From IMG/VR virus record IMGVR_UViG_3300034684_000290, positions 1-20,715 of that record: a DNA stretch of 20,715 nt. One strand, written 5' to 3'. Positions 1,578-11,344 of this stretch are shown here, piece by piece (the stretch's first letter is position 1; each line of letters starts with the position of its first letter). A program made the translations under genes and the position numbers. The notes beneath the pieces are model-generated. The model was given only the letters and a program-made list of their open reading frames with translations. It was not told where the DNA came from and searched no databases. This DNA is from a virus.

Positions 1578-1994
1578 TTACTTTGTTCCATCCTTATCGC
1601 CACCATCTTTTAGCTGTTCAAGGATCTCTTTGAGTTTCTCAGGTACAGGAAGCCCGATTCTTGTTGAGTTTTCAATGATGCTGATTCCTTCATTGGATAG
1701 ATAAAAGAAGATAACAGCAGTTCTAATGGCACCACCATCTCCGATAATGTTCTGGTCAATAATGTGAGCAATGCCTACCAGAGAGAAGATCACTACTTTC
1801 TTGAAAATGCCCCGAGCACCTACATCACTTGAAAGATGCTTTTCTAAAATGGCGCACATCACTCCAAGAATATAGTCAATCACCACAAAGGCGATCAGGG
1901 CATATAAAAATCCATCGTAACCTCCTAGAAACCAGCCAAGCCAACCACCAATGGCTGCAAAAGCCATTTGAATAAAAGTCCAAATATCTCTCAT
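1578..1994 (-). CDS. Phage holin, Phage_holin_4 (toxin secretion/phage lysis) family
   Basis: A 138-residue membrane protein expected to form inner-membrane lesions that release the endolysin. About four hydrophobic segments are visible, near residues 8-25, 28-50, 66-82 and 89-107, followed by a charged C-terminal tail (EKLKEILEQLKDGGDKDGTK). The motif FYLSNEGISIIEN followed by RIGLPVP is typical of the family. Its size is normal. It sits directly before the amidase, giving the usual two-gene lysis cassette. The ribosome site (GCGAGGAAATTAC before ATG) is weaker than those of most neighbours, and an intrinsic terminator lies just upstream. Both could keep holin expression low until late. Confidence 0.93.
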   Translation of the reverse strand: MRDIWTFIQMAFAAIGGWLGWFLGGYDGFLYALIAFVVIDYILGVMCAILEKHLSSDVGARGIFKKVVIFSLVGIAHIIDQNIIGDGGAIRTAVIFFYLSNEGISIIENSTRIGLPVPEKLKEILEQLKDGGDKDGTK

Positions 1995-2022
1995 GTAATT
2001 TCCTCGCTTTCATTTTTGTGTA

Positions 2023-2049
2023 TAAAAAAATGCCCTATTTATAAGGCAT
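2023..2049 (-). terminator. Intrinsic terminator between the baseplate and lysis genes
   Basis: Read on the minus strand, the 20-base ATGCCTTATAAATAGGGCAT folds on itself with about nine pairs (one G-U) and is followed by a run of seven T. It starts 6 bases after the stop of the hub-like gene and ends about 30 bases before the holin start. It would reduce read-through from the tail genes into the lysis cassette. Confidence 0.8.
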
Positions 2050-2055
2050 CAGTTC

Positions 2056-3411
2056 TTATTCATAAACCCTGCTACTGCTAGTTTTATCTTTTGTTATCTT
2101 TCCGATGTAGTCACTAAGTCTTCCTTTTCCAATTCTTCCTCCGCTGTCCACTGTAAAATCAGTGTAGAATCCGTCCTTCCCAAACCTGTGAGTTATTTCA
2201 GTTATGAGTCCAAGGTTAGAAGAACCTTTATCACTAACAATTACTGCTTCGTCTCCAAGTATAAGTTGTGGTCTGAATGGCCCAGTGAAACTCTCGATCT
2301 TACCAACATACTGAAGGCTTAGAGCTATCTGGTTTGCATAGTTTTCTGCATCGGTTAGTGAGGTTCCTTCAGGCACATTCACATACAGAGTTTTATTAGC
2401 CTGTAAATTCCAGCCGGTATAGGTTTCAACATCCCTATAGACCTTAAGAGAGAAGTTTTGGTTGTGGACGCATACTCGTCTATAGGCTTCTTGATCATCC
2501 CGTACAATGCTTCTTGTAAAAATGTCTTTACCCCTGTAAAAGGTGTAGGTGGTATTTCTTGTAAAGCCAGCATAGTTTGAAGATCCAATTACTACCGTTC
2601 CATCTACAAGTTCTTTTACTTGCCACCCATCCAGAGCCTTTAGAATCTCCATGATCCCTTCAAGACAGCTCATGTTCGCATCAAATTGATAGCCTGCATA
2701 AGTGCTGGTGTTTTCTACAAGCATCTCATCTGAGCTTATGTTTGCCCGAAACAGTATATCCTTCAAAATCTCATGGAGAACCATGTAGGGATATGAGTTC
2801 TCCTCATCAAAGCTTTGATCCCCTAGGGCTTTTCCGATTATGTTTCTACCATCCACACTGATAGCTTCAGATAGAAGAGAAAAATTGCTTCGATCCACAT
2901 AGAATACTCCCATTGGGTAAGGTTCACTATCTCCCATAACAAGTTCAAACTCCACTTTGCTTCCTGGAGATAGAAGGCTTGATTCTTCAGATATGGCCAC
3001 ATTACCTTCATACTCAGGATTTTCATTCATAGGATTATCAAGGCCTAAGGTAAAGGAGGCGATAGGGGTATCCATAGAATGCTTAATTGAACCACTTTTA
3101 AGGTATCGCTCCATCTCAAAAGCAAACTCATAGATTAATAGCTTATGGGTATCAGAGGTTCTGTAGCTTCCCACAACACCAAATCCCTGAAGAATTTGAA
3201 GCTCTAGCTGCTTGATTGTAACATCAGGACTGATCTTTATAGGAGAGAGCCAGGTGGGAGAGCTATACTCCCCGTTTAATTTCTCAGAAGGCTTTCCATA
3301 AAGTTCCTCACCTGTGAGATAAAAGAGCTGTCCTTCTGTCTTTGGAAACTGAAGAAAGTCAGGATATTTTCCCTGACCCACTATTCCCGTTGTAGAGAAA
3401 ACAAGTTCCAT
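2056..3411 (-). CDS. Tail/baseplate protein, hub-like (candidate tail-associated protein)
   Basis: A 451-residue protein at the end of the tail region, directly before the lysis terminator. Residues about 90-200 contain DTPIASFTLGLDNPMNENPE and VMGDSEPYPMGVFYVDR, a layout like the first beta-barrel of gp27/XkdQ-type baseplate hubs. Residues about 200-270 (SYPYMVLHEILKDILFRAN onward) resemble the helical insertion of those hubs. A second beta-rich half follows, with GLITEITHRF near residues 411-420. I infer a hub or Tal role from this pattern and its position. There is no visible peptidase or glycosidase motif. The start at 3411 follows the preceding stop without a gap (TAGATG). Annotation as an unknown tail protein is the safe alternative. 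Confidence 0.6.
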   Translation of the reverse strand: MELVFSTTGIVGQGKYPDFLQFPKTEGQLFYLTGEELYGKPSEKLNGEYSSPTWLSPIKISPDVTIKQLELQILQGFGVVGSYRTSDTHKLLIYEFAFEMERYLKSGSIKHSMDTPIASFTLGLDNPMNENPEYEGNVAISEESSLLSPGSKVEFELVMGDSEPYPMGVFYVDRSNFSLLSEAISVDGRNIIGKALGDQSFDEENSYPYMVLHEILKDILFRANISSDEMLVENTSTYAGYQFDANMSCLEGIMEILKALDGWQVKELVDGTVVIGSSNYAGFTRNTTYTFYRGKDIFTRSIVRDDQEAYRRVCVHNQNFSLKVYRDVETYTGWNLQANKTLYVNVPEGTSLTDAENYANQIALSLQYVGKIESFTGPFRPQLILGDEAVIVSDKGSSNLGLITEITHRFGKDGFYTDFTVDSGGRIGKGRLSDYIGKITKDKTSSSRVYE

Positions 3412-3555
3412 CTAATCACCTACTTCATCCTTATCCTCTGAAAGCTCAAGCTTAAGTTCATGTCTTTTACCGCATTTAATGCAGACCACATAGTCTCTAA
3501 TGGTCTCATAGTAAAACTCCTGACCACATTCACATTTTATGTTTCCTTTCTTCAT
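3412..3555 (-). CDS. 47-residue zinc-ribbon protein between tail genes
   Basis: A small gene of 48 codons including the stop. It begins MKKGNIKCECGQEF, and four cysteines at positions 8, 10, 25 and 28 form a CxC-(14)-CxxC set, a compact zinc ribbon. An acidic tail follows (LSEDKDEVGD). The ATG at 3555 abuts the stop of the preceding gene (TAGATG), the ribosome site GGGGAGGGG lies within that gene's end, and its stop TAG abuts the ATG of the next gene. This exact packing supports a real gene. Small Com-like or DNA-directed zinc ribbons occur in some phage tail regions, but I cannot assign a role. It might act as a translational regulator or a small structural piece. Confidence 0.78.
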   Translation of the reverse strand: MKKGNIKCECGQEFYYETIRDYVVCIKCGKRHELKLELSEDKDEVGD

Positions 3556-5025
3556 CTAGATCCCCTCCCCAAGTACTAAAACAGCCTCGGCATTAAGAAG
3601 ATAATTGGTACCCTTAGGTATCTCGTTGATATGGTGTCTTTTGATGAGCACGATATCTCCTTCTTGTAGAACTGTTGTGTTAAACTTCATCATTGGAAGC
3701 AGGTAGCTTTGCCAGTCAAATAGTTCCATGCTTCCATAGCCTTCTGTAATGTAGCAGTTAATTCTCAAATACTTCTGAGTGGTGTTGATATGGATATATC
3801 TATAGGTAGTTTCATTGGAACCATATCCCAATCCGGTAACGTAATTGACCCATGCATCTTCAGAGTTATCCTTTGTTGCAAAATCATAGTAGCTTCTGGC
3901 ATACCCTTGCCTTGTCCTAAAGCTGATAACAAAATTAAAGCCTTCCTCTGAATAAAGCTCAACCATCCCGCATTGTCTCGTACTACTAATTGTCCCGGTG
4001 TGGAAGTAATGATTATTGATAACTTCAGTCCATTTTGCATAAGATGTTGGAATAACAAGGACATTAAGAAAACTAAATTCCTCGCTTGTATAATTGAAGT
4101 CGCCAAACTCCGTGAAGTAGTGGTCTGTGATCACATTACCATTTACCTTGACTTCTTCAATATCAGTGGTCTTAAAGTTTAGAAACAGCTTGTTGGCTGC
4201 GGCTTCCTCCGCAGAAACCACATACTCATAATACATATCTCCGTCAAAGGTCACAGGCAGAGACCCAACACCTGTCCATATCAGCCTATCCACCGGGATG
4301 TCGAGTTTTCTATCCTTGAAGGTCTTACCGAAGTATCTGCTGCCTGTAGCCTCTATTCCAAGAACAGCATAATTGCTGAACTGACAATTGAGTTTTCTGG
4401 TTCTTGCAACTGCATCTGTGGTAGCTGTCGCACTCATGCCAACATTCGGTTGGCATAGATATTTACTGGTTGATATGGCCAAGGTGTTAGAGGGTACGCT
4501 TCCTGCACCAGCCAGGTAGTCTCTAAGGGTCGTATACCATTCACCGCCATCTGTAAACTCATCAAACTCAACAAATACTGTGGCATAGATATCTATGATC
4601 CTTACAGGTGTCTTTTCTATGGTTAGTTGATTTCCTTCGGCATCAGTTATCATGGCATGGGTATTTATGTTGGTTGTGGTCTCGCTGATGCCTACCTCTG
4701 TTAAGATGTTTCCATTAAACTCAGTCGCTTCAAGCCTTATGGACTTGGTCCATTTAGATACAGGAAATGCCCTGATCAGCTCTACGGTGGAGCAAGGTTT
4801 ATTGCCCACTCGGTTAAAAAGTGTGGTTCTTGTTGGATCCATGGTTCCACTACCAGTGCCAAACACGATCTGGTCAAAGTAACTGCTAAAAGCCACAAGC
4901 CTGGTATAAATCCTATCAAGGACCATATTTTCAGCTTGGCCTCTTAATTCCACTTCACCGGTATCTGCATTGGTTACTTCGATGTCAAATCTATTGTGAA
5001 ACTTGGGTTTTATCTCTGCCCTCAT
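3556..5025 (-). CDS. Large tail/baseplate protein of unknown function
   Basis: A 489-residue protein. The N-terminal part (KPKFHNRFDIEVTNADTGE, then AENMVLDRIYTRL and IVFGTGSGTMDPTRTTLF) resembles the N-terminal attachment region of tail or baseplate appendage proteins in Firmicutes phages, which usually dock on the tail tip. The rest is beta-rich with many aromatic residues and no recognisable catalytic motif, consistent with a binding or fibre-like role. The ATG at 5025 is chosen because GGAGG lies 7 bases before it; an ATG at 5031 is directly against the site. It starts 12 bases after the F5/8C gene and abuts the zinc-ribbon gene. Its exact job in the tail is inferred from position only. 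Confidence 0.6.
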   Translation of the reverse strand: MRAEIKPKFHNRFDIEVTNADTGEVELRGQAENMVLDRIYTRLVAFSSYFDQIVFGTGSGTMDPTRTTLFNRVGNKPCSTVELIRAFPVSKWTKSIRLEATEFNGNILTEVGISETTTNINTHAMITDAEGNQLTIEKTPVRIIDIYATVFVEFDEFTDGGEWYTTLRDYLAGAGSVPSNTLAISTSKYLCQPNVGMSATATTDAVARTRKLNCQFSNYAVLGIEATGSRYFGKTFKDRKLDIPVDRLIWTGVGSLPVTFDGDMYYEYVVSAEEAAANKLFLNFKTTDIEEVKVNGNVITDHYFTEFGDFNYTSEEFSFLNVLVIPTSYAKWTEVINNHYFHTGTISSTRQCGMVELYSEEGFNFVISFRTRQGYARSYYDFATKDNSEDAWVNYVTGLGYGSNETTYRYIHINTTQKYLRINCYITEGYGSMELFDWQSYLLPMMKFNTTVLQEGDIVLIKRHHINEIPKGTNYLLNAEAVLVLGEGI

Positions 5026-7248: not shown

Positions 7249-7613
7249 GGCGACACCTCCTCTTTGAGAACCATTTTAATTGTTCCTTCAAAAAGACTCT
7301 TATCTAAATTACCATGCGCAAAATTAATCCGTTTCCAGGAAATATTCTCCTCGATATAAACTACATATTTTTTGTCAAGAAAGATCAGTACCAGTGGGGT
7401 ACCAAGGTCACTTAGAAGGTTGATTCTCTCTGCCTGCCTAAAACTGGATACGATTGTTCCTGTTGTGCTTTTAAGGGGACTACCGATCACCTGCACATGA
7501 TAACTGCCATCTAAGAGCCTGTTTACTACACGATTGGAAACATGCTCAAAGGGAGAGAGGTCCTTAAGAATCCTTGATAGGACTTCTCCGTTAGAAGTTT
7601 CAAGTCTAATCAT
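7245..7613 (-). CDS. Small tail-tip protein following the tape measure
   Basis: A 122-residue protein whose ATG shares a base with the tape measure stop (TGATG) and whose TGA overlaps the next GTG, so it is tightly coupled to both. It is beta-rich, with strands around SYHVQVIGSPLKSTTGTIVSS (split by a turn), TPLVLIFLDKKYVVYIE and FEGTIKMVLKEE. Position right after the tape measure is where distal tail (Dit) proteins lie in siphophages, but Dit proteins are usually near 200-300 residues. This could be a reduced Dit-like barrel or an unrelated tail-tip protein. I recognise no named family. Confidence 0.6.
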   Translation of the reverse strand: MIRLETSNGEVLSRILKDLSPFEHVSNRVVNRLLDGSYHVQVIGSPLKSTTGTIVSSFRQAERINLLSDLGTPLVLIFLDKKYVVYIEENISWKRINFAHGNLDKSLFEGTIKMVLKEEVSP

Positions 7614-9793
7614 CAGATTCTAGCCTCCCTTCTAAACTGGTCCATAATAATTTCAACCACACCAGTTAGCTCATTCTTTGTATTAATCCCTCTAACTTCG
7701 ATAACTCCTGTATGTTGAACTATTGAAGGAGTCTCTCTACTAGGATTAAAACCTTGAAGCGAGTCATCAATATTAAGTCTTGTATCAAGATTAAAATTAG
7801 TAGGTATTGCCCCCTGTATTTCCTTTTCAATTCCGCTCATTGCATCAGTGAAGCCTTCTCCAATACCTTCACCCATGTTAGCACCAATGCCAGCAAATAC
7901 CTTTGAGGGAGAGTTGATACCAAGAACCTTCTTAACACCACCAACAATCCCGTTGACCATGTTTTTTACTTTTTCTCCAAGCCAACCGATCATTGACGCA
8001 ATACCATCCCACAAGCCTCTTGCGATATTTTTTCCGACCTCCAATATGGATGGAATCCCTCTGGTGAGTCCGTTCACAATAGAGAATATGATTTGTGGAA
8101 GTTGAGCAACTATCTGCGGAATAGCCCTGATCAAGCCCATACCAAGTTGGATAGTTAGCTGGACACCCATCTCAATAATTCTTGGTAGATTTGCGGTCAT
8201 GAAACCAACAATACTGTTAATGATTTGAGGTAAGGCTTCAATTAATACAGGTAGGGCATTTAAAATACCAGTAGCCAGTCCCTGAACAAGCTGAAAGGCA
8301 GCATTTAAAATCTGGTCCATGTTGGCAATCAGCGTCTCCACAATCAGAATGATAGCTTGGACAACAGATGGAATCAGTTCTGGAAGTGCTATACCTATCC
8401 CCTCAACTAATGTAGTTACAAGTAAAATTGCTGCTTCAATTAACAGCGGTAGATTATCGATTAGGGCTCCCACTATGGTCATCACTGCATCCACAGCTGC
8501 TGGAATCAGTTCTGGAAGCAAACTGAGTAATGTCCCAAGGACCTGTCCAAAGAGGTCAGTTACGGTACTTAGAAGCACTGGTAGCAGTTCAGCAAGTGCA
8601 ACTAAAATGGCATCCATAGCAGGTGGCAGTGCAGTCACAATGTTCTCAATGATAGGCACAATGTTTTTAACCACTGATTGGAAGGCATCCACGAGATTTT
8701 CTGTCAGATTTGTCATGTCCGCATTGGCATTACCTAATCCTGCTGTAAATGAACCGAGAGCTGCTTGTAAAAGTCCAATAGATCCTGTAACCGTCTCTGT
8801 TGATTCACGGGCGAAGTTTCCAGCGTACTGCTCTGTGTTTTCAAAAAACATCTGCATGGCTACCTCAGCTTTCTCTGCCTGAGTAGCTGTGGCCCAAGTG
8901 AAATCAAGTCCCTTTGCAAGAGCATAGGCTTCGATATTTGTAGCATTCATAGCCACGCCTAGATTATCCATCATGGTAAAGTTGCCCTTTGCAGCGCCAG
9001 CAACAGAATCAAGCGCAGTTTGCATGTCGATACCCATAACGGATGCCATATCAGCGGCTCGTTGCATAGCCTTTTCTGTCAACTCTAGACTCTTTTGCTG
9101 TTCAACACCGGATCCTTGAAATAAAGCACCCATCTTATTGGCTGTGGCAAGATAATCACTTTGAGATACACCCAAGTTCTTATAAGCTTCTTCTCCAGTC
9201 TTTTGAATAGATGAAGCATATTTTCCAAATACAGCTTCGGAACCACCAAGGTTTTGCTCCAGTTCCCCAAACTGCTGAACAATTTCCTTCCCCAGCTTTA
9301 TGGTTGCAGCACCTGCAGCAAGTGCCACAGAACCCATAGCGACACCAATCCCTTTAAGAACCCCTCCAAACTTCTCAAACTTCCCACCAGCGCCTTCTGC
9401 GGACTTACCGGATTCATCTAACTGCTCTCCCAGGTTTTCTGCTTCTACAGCGGAATCTTCCAGTTCCTTTTCCATTTTATTGAGATCTGCATTAGCGTTA
9501 TTTAATTGAATCTGCCAGGCTTTTGTTCGTTTGTCATTTTCCCCGAAGGACTCTGCTGCATTCTTTAAGGCGGATTCAAGTATCTTAACCTTGTCCTTTT
9601 GAGCATCGATTTCTTTATTTAAGACTTCATTTCTTGCTGTTACTGCCTGGAGGGATTTTTCTTGCTTATCAAATTGTGAAGTCACAAGGTTCATTTCTGA
9701 GCCTAGCACTTTAAAGTTTTGGTTTATTTCACGGAGTGCATTTTTAAATTCTTTTTCGCCCTCGACGCCAATCTTCAGTCCAAAGTCCGACAT
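7613..9793 (-). CDS. Phage tail tape measure protein
   Basis: A 726-residue protein that sets tail length and is threaded through the tail tube. Residues about 15-130 are a coiled coil (many Lys/Glu/Gln heptads such as VTSQFDKQEKSLQAVTARN). Residues about 150-330 match the TP901-type core, with EKAMQRAADMASVMGID and SVAGAAKGNFTMMDNLGVAM. Residues about 390-600 are an unusual series of hydrophobic helices with repeated LPxLI/LPQII turns. The GINSPSKVFAGIGANMGEGI motif is typical of the C-terminal part. Using the common rule of about 0.15 nm per residue, the tail would be near 110 nm, a modest length. A GGAGG site precedes the ATG, and an intrinsic terminator lies just before it. Confidence 0.95.
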   Translation of the reverse strand: MSDFGLKIGVEGEKEFKNALREINQNFKVLGSEMNLVTSQFDKQEKSLQAVTARNEVLNKEIDAQKDKVKILESALKNAAESFGENDKRTKAWQIQLNNANADLNKMEKELEDSAVEAENLGEQLDESGKSAEGAGGKFEKFGGVLKGIGVAMGSVALAAGAATIKLGKEIVQQFGELEQNLGGSEAVFGKYASSIQKTGEEAYKNLGVSQSDYLATANKMGALFQGSGVEQQKSLELTEKAMQRAADMASVMGIDMQTALDSVAGAAKGNFTMMDNLGVAMNATNIEAYALAKGLDFTWATATQAEKAEVAMQMFFENTEQYAGNFARESTETVTGSIGLLQAALGSFTAGLGNANADMTNLTENLVDAFQSVVKNIVPIIENIVTALPPAMDAILVALAELLPVLLSTVTDLFGQVLGTLLSLLPELIPAAVDAVMTIVGALIDNLPLLIEAAILLVTTLVEGIGIALPELIPSVVQAIILIVETLIANMDQILNAAFQLVQGLATGILNALPVLIEALPQIINSIVGFMTANLPRIIEMGVQLTIQLGMGLIRAIPQIVAQLPQIIFSIVNGLTRGIPSILEVGKNIARGLWDGIASMIGWLGEKVKNMVNGIVGGVKKVLGINSPSKVFAGIGANMGEGIGEGFTDAMSGIEKEIQGAIPTNFNLDTRLNIDDSLQGFNPSRETPSIVQHTGVIEVRGINTKNELTGVVEIIMDQFRREARI

Positions 9794-9815: not shown

Positions 9816-9838
9816 AAAAAAACACCTCTTACGGTGTT
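9816..9838 (-). terminator. Intrinsic terminator just before the tape measure gene
   Basis: On the minus strand AACACC, a 6-base loop and GGTGTT form a 6-bp stem that runs directly into T residues. It lies 11 bases after the stop of the frameshifted chaperone product and ends about 20 bases before the tape measure ATG. Its location inside the late operon suggests attenuation or a need for antitermination. Confidence 0.78.
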
Positions 9839-9849
9839 GGTTAGAATCC

Positions 9850-10448
9850 TTATAGAAATGCTGGAATGATATCATCAATGTAATTATCAAGTTTTGGTTT
9901 TGATATACCAATAAACTGTTTATGACACTCCCAAAGGTCCATCAAATAACCTATGGGCATTAACCAGACATCATCTTCCATCCGATTAAGGTGGGCTGTG
10001 CCATAATAAATCAGTCGGGTAAATAACTCTTGATCACTTACCCGACTACCTCGTTTTTTGAGGATTCACTCTCAACATTCCTTTTAGTACCTTTTAGCAT
10101 ACTGGCCATGATGGCATTTTTGTAATTAGCCAGATCAAAGGGAGTGGTTAGAAGCTCAACTTCATCTTCAGTGAGAAGCACCTTTTTATCATCCTTATTT
10201 CTAATATTGTGAATAAGAATGGATTGGTTTGCGAGCAGTGTGATAAGCCACACTACCTCTTCCAGTGCCATTTCAAAGTTCTCACTTTTCATCAGCTTCT
10301 CACCCAGGTTTTCAAGCCCACCATACCGTTTAGCAATTTCCTTTGTCGCTTTTGTGGTCAGAATCATCTTAAACTCTGTACCATCGATATCAATGGTGGA
10401 ACTTCTTTCTTCAGCTGCTTCATCAATTTTTATCTTCTTCTCTGACAT
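9850..10448 (-). CDS. Tail assembly chaperone, gpGT-type long form made by -1 frameshift
   Basis: This joined product reads the short chaperone frame through residue 132, slips back one base at the heptamer A-AAA-AAC (10059-10053), then continues in the -1 frame from the CGA codon at 10053 to a TAA at 9852-9850. It adds 67 residues and gives about 199 in total. The extension contains LIYYGTAHLNRMEDDVWLMP and DLWECHKQFIG, recalled as typical of T-type extensions in Firmicutes tail chaperones. The extension has no good start codon or ribosome site of its own. The long form normally bridges the tape measure and major tail protein during tail assembly. The location between those two genes fits. 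The shift product is inferred from the signal and homology-like features, not measured. Confidence 0.88.
10013..10059 (-). promoter_or_regulatory. Programmed -1 ribosomal frameshift signal
   Basis: On the minus strand the slippery heptamer A-AAA-AAC is in the correct phase (third base of TCA, then AAA AAC). Five bases later comes a perfect 10-bp stem: AGTCGGGTAA at 10047-10038 pairs with TTACCCGACT at 10022-10013 across a 15-base loop. The stem contains the zero-frame stop codon TAA. This is the standard architecture for -1 frameshifting in phage tail chaperone genes. Confidence 0.9.
10038..10448 (-). CDS. Tail assembly chaperone, gpG-type short form
   Basis: A 136-residue acidic, mostly helical protein beginning MSEKKIKIDEAAEER. 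The core contains a small beta region (TIDIDGTEFKMILTT), a KEIAKRYGGLENLGEKL helix and a helical end (FDLANYKNAIMASMLKG). It is the unshifted product, ending GTAGTCGGGTAA. It is the abundant form that coats the tape measure protein before tail tube assembly. The ATG at 10448 is chosen because it lies 7 bases after GGGAGG; the ATG at 10454 abuts that site and the one at 10463 precedes it. The gene sits between the major tail protein and tape measure genes, the expected place. The function is by family knowledge plus context. Confidence 0.88.
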   Translation of the reverse strand: MSEKKIKIDEAAEERSSTIDIDGTEFKMILTTKATKEIAKRYGGLENLGEKLMKSENFEMALEEVVWLITLLANQSILIHNIRNKDDKKVLLTEDEVELLTTPFDLANYKNAIMASMLKGTKRNVESESSKNEVVG

Positions 10449-10462
10449 AGTCATTCCTCCCA

Positions 10463-11344
10463 TTAAGAAACAACAACAGTAGCAACTGTTGTTGTCACGT
10501 TTTCTGCGCCACTAGAGCTTAAGACGCAATAGTAGTAATAGGTATCCGCCAGAAGATCCGTAGGAATGTCGAAGCTTGCTGAGGTTTCTCCGTTAATCGC
10601 TGTACCGCCTGTGGTGCTGTCAAAGGTATTTTCATACCACTGAAAGGTTACAGGGTTTGAAGTGTTGGCACTTGCCACTATAGAAAGACTACCTGTTATG
10701 TTGCCTTCAGTGACCTCTGTGAGAGTTGCTGGTTGAGTTGTGATGGTTATGGTTGGGGTTACGGCTGTAAAGTCTGGTTCATAAACGGATGTGAACCAGC
10801 TTGTAATTGTTGATGCCGCTACACCATTATCTCCTTCAGTAACTTCCGCTTTCCAAGGATGTTTGCTTTCTCCGTCCAGTTTGTTTCTTCTAAAGACGGT
10901 TCCTTCTATGGTGGGACTGCTAAAAGTAATGGAGTCGCCTTTGGTGGCCAGGCTTGTGGCGGGAACAGAGAAGATAACCCTGTAGAGCCAAAAGTAGCGA
11001 TATTTTCCATTGGCCTTCTTGGCACGAAACCCGACTGCCACAGGGCTACCACCATCTTCACTTCTTGAAACCACCACATTGTTGCTGTCAATTTTGCAGC
11101 CCGTTAAGTCCTGGGCCACCAGGGAACCAATGTCATCAATACCGAGTGTCAGGGCGCCACTCTTAAATTCTTTTACCACCTCACTGGCCCCATCATCTGC
11201 GTAGAGAATGGCTTCAATGAGCTCAATGCTCAGCTCCGCAGTCATGGCTTTAGCCAGTACTTTAGGGGTTCCATAGGTTTCGATGCCATTTTGATCTTCG
11301 GTGATCTTGGCATAATATAATTGATCCAAACCAATCGTTGCCAT
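10463..11344 (-). CDS. Major tail tube protein with C-terminal Ig-like domain
   Basis: A 293-residue protein forming the tail tube. Residues about 1-190 match the phi13/TP901 type major tail protein: MATIGLDQLYYAKITED, the KVLAKAMTAELSIELIEA segment, then VGFRAKKANGKYRYFWLYRV. Residues about 197-293 are a separate Ig-like module, with TFQWYEN (Trp237) and the YYYYCVL strand (Cys273). It follows an apparent linker (YEPDFTAVTPTIT). Such modules decorate tail tubes and are thought to bind weakly to cell-surface sugars. A GGAGG site lies 8 bases before ATG. It precedes the chaperone pair, as expected. Confidence 0.92.
   Translation of the reverse strand: MATIGLDQLYYAKITEDQNGIETYGTPKVLAKAMTAELSIELIEAILYADDGASEVVKEFKSGALTLGIDDIGSLVAQDLTGCKIDSNNVVVSRSEDGGSPVAVGFRAKKANGKYRYFWLYRVIFSVPATSLATKGDSITFSSPTIEGTVFRRNKLDGESKHPWKAEVTEGDNGVAASTITSWFTSVYEPDFTAVTPTITITTQPATLTEVTEGNITGSLSIVASANTSNPVTFQWYENTFDSTTGGTAINGETSASFDIPTDLLADTYYYYCVLSSSGAENVTTTVATVVVS

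Follow-up and report, generated by a model that had tools for sequence, protein, structure and literature searches.

Frameshifting in phage tail chaperone genes has long been known, and the locus described here is a well-supported new example. The tail assembly chaperone frameshift of lambda G/GT was reportedly worked out by Levin in 1993 and by Xu, Hendrix and Duda in 2004 and 2013, and its slip site is GGGAAAG. Lambda needs G and GT at a ratio of about 30:1, with G binding the tape measure protein and T binding the major tail protein (PMC5009743). In TP901-1, both gpG and gpGT are required for functional tails, and the slip site is GGGAAAG (PMC4493119). For the tail assembly proteins of Paenibacillus larvae phages, including Wanderer, a G/GT-like frameshift has been predicted on the A-rich heptamers AAAAAAA, GGAAAAA and TAAAAAA (predictions only, PMC6256562), and reporters for another phage tail chaperone cluster gave 6-7% frameshifting (PMC3711429).

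Like lambda G/GT, the gene considered here lies between the major tail and tape measure genes, consists of a short form and a -1 extension with a heptamer shortly before the short frame ends, and is expected to yield its two products in unequal amounts; like TP901-1 gpG/gpGT, it belongs to a Bacillota phage and has its -1 extension at the same gene position. Unlike lambda, it carries A_AAA_AAC together with a strong, conserved hairpin that holds the zero-frame stop, and the same heptamer sets it apart from TP901-1 and from the sites predicted in the P. larvae phages. Neither the short form nor the extension was found to share a sequence family with lambda G or T.

The chaperone locus and its two frames

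The window, that is, the whole stretch of 20,715 nucleotides that was analysed, is a 20.7-kb virus record with its head and tail genes on the minus strand (Table 1). The order of major tail protein, chaperone and tape measure genes is identical in annotated relatives, and the relatives of the chaperone locus are Bacillota prophages and gut phages. An earlier note on this DNA had placed a tail chaperone frameshift in the interval from the major tail protein gene to the tape measure gene, and this reading, as a G/GT-type frameshift, is strongly supported by the TIGR01603/phrog_88 and phrog_58 neighbours as well as by the conserved extension. Judged from its sequence, the locus very probably belongs to a siphophage-like provirus of Bacillota with a frameshifted tail assembly chaperone gene of the lambda G/GT type.

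Table 1. Positions of the features discussed, numbered along the window
Feature	Position	Strand	Details
Major tail protein gene	10463..11344	-	upstream neighbour; TIGR01603 E 8.9e-25; phrog_88 E 3.6e-49
Short tail assembly chaperone (G-like), 136 aa	10038..10448	-	ATG 10448 to TAA 10040-10038
Slippery heptamer A AAA AAC	10053..10059	-	-1 slip phase; zero frame TCA AAA AAC
Putative stimulatory hairpin, 16 bp, 5-nt loop CAAGA	10012..10048	-	RNAfold; arms 10048-10033 and 10027-10012; spacer 4 nt
Zero-frame stop TAA of the short form	10038..10040	-	within the 5' arm of the stem
-1 frame extension (T-like), 67 codons and stop	9850..10053	-	phrog_10988 E 1.4e-23; predicted frameshift product 199 aa
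Terminator-like hairpin and T tract	9816..9838	-	between extension and tape measure gene; terminator scan
Tape measure protein gene	7613..9793	-	downstream neighbour; phrog_58 E 9.3e-75

As for the neighbours themselves, the C-terminal part of the major tail protein carries an additional Ig-like region (window 10463-10770, minus strand) that is absent from shorter relatives of ~195 aa.

The start of the short form is suited by a GGGAGG Shine-Dalgarno sequence at 10461-10456; starting instead at an alternative upstream ATG at 10463 would give a short form of 141 aa, but GGGAGG fits the ATG at 10448, which makes residue 132 the last before the shift, as in the earlier note. In profile searches the short form was assigned to phrog_2115 (tail protein, E 3.5e-24), and 4 of 18 relatives gave weak matches to phrog_183 (tail chaperone). 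Its predicted structure is mainly helical (pLDDT 80), and a fold search with this model returned viral proteins annotated as tail assembly chaperones, among them that of Paenibacillus phage Wanderer, a weak fold match (E 0.15, prob 0.98). The same search against the PDB matched no solved structure, and searches of Pfam and NCBIfam with both the short form and the extension gave nothing useful, including no Pfam tail chaperone model.

The -1 frame is open only from a stop at 10068; after the heptamer it reads RGSRVSDQELFTRLIYYGTAHLNRMEDDVWLMPIGYLMDLWECHKQFIGISKPKLDNYIDDIIPAFL, with the stop ending at 9850. The open frame of 67 codons lacking a ribosome site of its own, as claimed in the earlier note, is borne out: the first possible start, at 9981, lies 24 codons in and lacks a Shine-Dalgarno sequence. 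The extension belongs to phrog_10988, a family without assigned function, and its structure model is poor (pLDDT 63).

Slip signal and extension among the relatives

Relatives were gathered from viral contigs, bacterial genomes and phage records with the extension alone as query. Homologues of the 67-residue extension, on which the earlier note had staked its reading, are indeed present directly behind AAAAAAC, in all 110 loci of a first set, which also have TAA at the same place, and in 168 of the 173 distinct relatives of an enlarged set. The five exceptions comprise two with AAAAAAC one codon upstream, one with AAAAAAA, one with CAAAAAC and one weak stray match. Across 56 representatives the heptamer has an entropy of 0 bits, compared with a mean of 1.75 and a minimum of 1.21 at upstream zero-frame third positions; these representatives are less than 85% identical and were picked for carrying the heptamer, and the unbiased rate is that of the 168/173 set. 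In the window the heptamer stands at 10059-10053 (minus strand) in the phase originally read, and among the approximately 57 listed slippery heptamers on both strands it is the only one with a stem of at least 8 bp close downstream. On these comparative data, a chance origin of the predicted frameshift signal is excluded. Two further elements around the heptamer were considered. A small hairpin in the window's fold, whose stem CCTC/GAGG would put the heptamer in the loop, pairs in only 15-41 of the 56 representatives and is not conserved, and a search of the same 56 for a dnaX-like Shine-Dalgarno stimulator upstream of the heptamer found no sharply conserved element, the purine-rich stretch there being explained by codons.

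The perfect 10-bp stem with 15-nt loop and 5-nt spacer that had first been noticed is present (10047-10038 with 10022-10013), and the full stem is longer, at 16 bp. RNAfold gives the hairpin -21.6 kcal/mol, compared with -7.7 +/- 2.3 for shuffled sequences (z = -6.0), and none of 200 shuffles was as stable. Among the relatives the ten core pairs are kept at 98-99%, with fixed spacing and no gaps. Two of the stem pairs link bases that are both third codon positions in the -1 frame; these pairs covary, one as UA/CG/UG/GU/GC and the other as GC/AU/GU/CG. When codons were exchanged only between sequences that carry the same residue, none of 2000 shuffles reached the observed pairing at each of 121, 56 and 19 non-redundant sequences, and 20 of 2000 did so at eight sequences. 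An independent count over 23 sequences gave a covariation of 0.270, against 0.153 +/- 0.014 when shuffled and at most 0.104 with slid partners, and none of 500 shuffles reached it. Because the covariation exceeds that of synonymous shuffles, the stem is selected as RNA, beyond what coding demands. Read in this way, the locus is a putative hairpin-stimulated -1 programmed frameshift with its downstream stem backed by compensatory changes.

The frame could in principle be changed by RNA polymerase slipping on the A run instead of by the ribosome, and a run of six A is found in nearly all copies. A runs as short as six, however, usually slip inefficiently for RNA polymerase, while the C at the seventh base, the phase, and a stem that covaries at constant distance from the heptamer suit ribosomal slippage; we regard slippage by the polymerase as extremely improbable.

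Past the stem, the extension frame has no stop in any of 55 representatives, and its three codon positions have entropies of 0.63/0.50/1.44. The extension has a dN/dS of ~0.12, the zero-frame reading of the same DNA a pN/pS of 1.24, and the length is 67 codons in nearly all relatives. By these sequence measures the predicted extension is evolving as protein. A relative with a stop in the extension frame (L106) looks like a decayed copy.

Both halves, short form and extension, occur in the same 19 phage records, and the records that were opened annotate them as separate genes, with hypothetical proteins of 31-43 aa at the extension. Could the extension then be a separate small gene, begun at an internal ATG or GTG? 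Its conservation sets in with the codons read immediately after the slip, before any start codon is reached: V5, S6, F11, R13, Y16, G18 and L22 all precede the first start codon of the window (24 codons in) and are invariant or nearly so. That start in the window has no Shine-Dalgarno sequence, the annotated lengths vary by record whereas the whole -1 frame is always of ~67 codons, and a separate gene would leave the heptamer and stem unexplained. We therefore find this arrangement very unlikely and keep to an extension reached by frameshifting.

Proposed decoding and the stop codon within the stem

From signal anatomy and conservation we infer that slippage occurs. Most ribosomes would end at the TAA and release the short form, while a minority, held up by the hairpin when AAA occupies the P site and AAC the A site, would shift back by one base to AAA AAA and translate 67 further codons to complete the long form of 199 aa. 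The efficiency is probably a few percent. A_AAA_AAC is a modest slip site in E. coli, weaker there than A_AAA_AAG (PMC5009743), a comparison to be read with the caveat that the E. coli ribosome may differ from that of the host. By analogy with lambda, the part shared by both forms would coat the tape measure protein and the extension would recruit the major tail protein; these putative partners of the G-like and T-like parts are suggested by synteny together with weak profile and fold similarity.

The zero-frame stop follows the slip codon at a distance of 12 nt, and 170 of 173 relatives have a stop at this position (TAA in 159, TGA in 9, TAG in 2). The earlier note had suggested that its location in the stem could tie the ratio of short to long form to stem stability. 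The conserved placement upholds the observation, but the consequence drawn from it does not follow: since ribosomes in either frame must open the stem, the placement of the stop alone would not set the ratio. One may still ask whether the stop is a working part, such that a terminating ribosome covers the slip site and holds the hairpin open, and the ratio follows the speed of termination and the spacing of ribosomes. The constraints on this site allow such a reading. Besides the fixed position and the preference for TAA, the codon after valine at the stop site never starts with T or C, and serine at the stop-site codon is written AGY in 47 of 47 representatives, compared with 14 of 72 serines elsewhere in the extension. 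Base pairing alone also accounts for most of this, however, the AGY bias being largely due to pairing with the 3' arm, and we consider a working stop unlikely.

The interval before the tape measure gene

The distance from the extension to the tape measure gene differs among relatives. The tape measure start lies within the fetched DNA in 134 of 183 distinct relatives, at most 300 bases from the extension in 114 of these; the gap exceeds 300 bases in 20 relatives, and in others unrelated genes are found there. The genes carried include AbiEi/AbiEii, HepT-like with nucleotidyltransferase, PIN with MazE, a Gp49-like toxin, ToxN and SLFN_AlbA_2, as well as the PADLOC candidates PDC-S11 and PDC-S01 (relatives L285, L012, L314, L090, L360, L102, L244, L232 and L195). 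The junction is an insertion site that has taken up toxin-antitoxin and defence genes. Between the corresponding tail genes HK97 carries a known moron, gp15, so the site itself is not new; its toxin-antitoxin load may be. A palindrome, GTCNNNTTNGTNCGTA...TACGAACNAAAATGAC, directly follows the extension stop at 18 distinct loci (including L327, L316, L308, L281, L314 and L301). In L314 and L301 it forms a promoter-like operator before abiEi, and it is kept also where abiE genes are missing.

Of 177 distinct relatives, 57 have a terminator-like hairpin after the extension, mainly those of the window's own clade, whereas such a hairpin arose in 13 of 531 shuffles; in the window this hairpin (9838-9816) may lower transcription of the tape measure gene relative to that of the tail tube.

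In one relative (L382, PV036457.1), a group II intron of 2471 nt that carries a reverse transcriptase occupies 1588-4058, 7 nt past the frameshift hairpin. Its removal restores exactly the 67-residue extension, so the long form of this phage would be expected to depend on both splicing and slippage. Terminator stem-loops are the insertion sites of class C introns (PMC4424553), and the frameshift hairpin may have served as such a target. A second candidate intron, in L108, proved to be only a decayed fragment.

This intron position, together with a terminator scan that flags the frameshift stem, raises the question of whether the stem is mainly a transcription attenuator or terminator with an incidental heptamer. 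Yet what follows the stem is an interrupted tail (ATTTATTATG) that encodes a conserved L/I-Y-Y-G, the distinct terminator-like element lies further down, and the conservation of heptamer, phase and frame would be left unexplained. We hold a primarily terminating role to be highly improbable, and retain the stem as the likely stimulator of frameshifting.

Lastly, we need to consider how this family has been recorded so far. The PHROG library keeps phrog_2115, the family of the short form, and phrog_10988, that of the extension, as unrelated families, with descriptions that state no frameshift link. A literature search, which covered subscription literature in part, found neither this family nor the invariant A_AAA_AAC, the covarying stem or the joining of the two PHROG families. 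The present analysis unites phrog_2115 and phrog_10988, now apart, as a single frameshifted chaperone, and provides a large natural alignment of a single frameshift signal in which the stem covaries and the stop keeps its place. Standard gene calling misses the long form, and annotation of these prophages should merge the two pieces.
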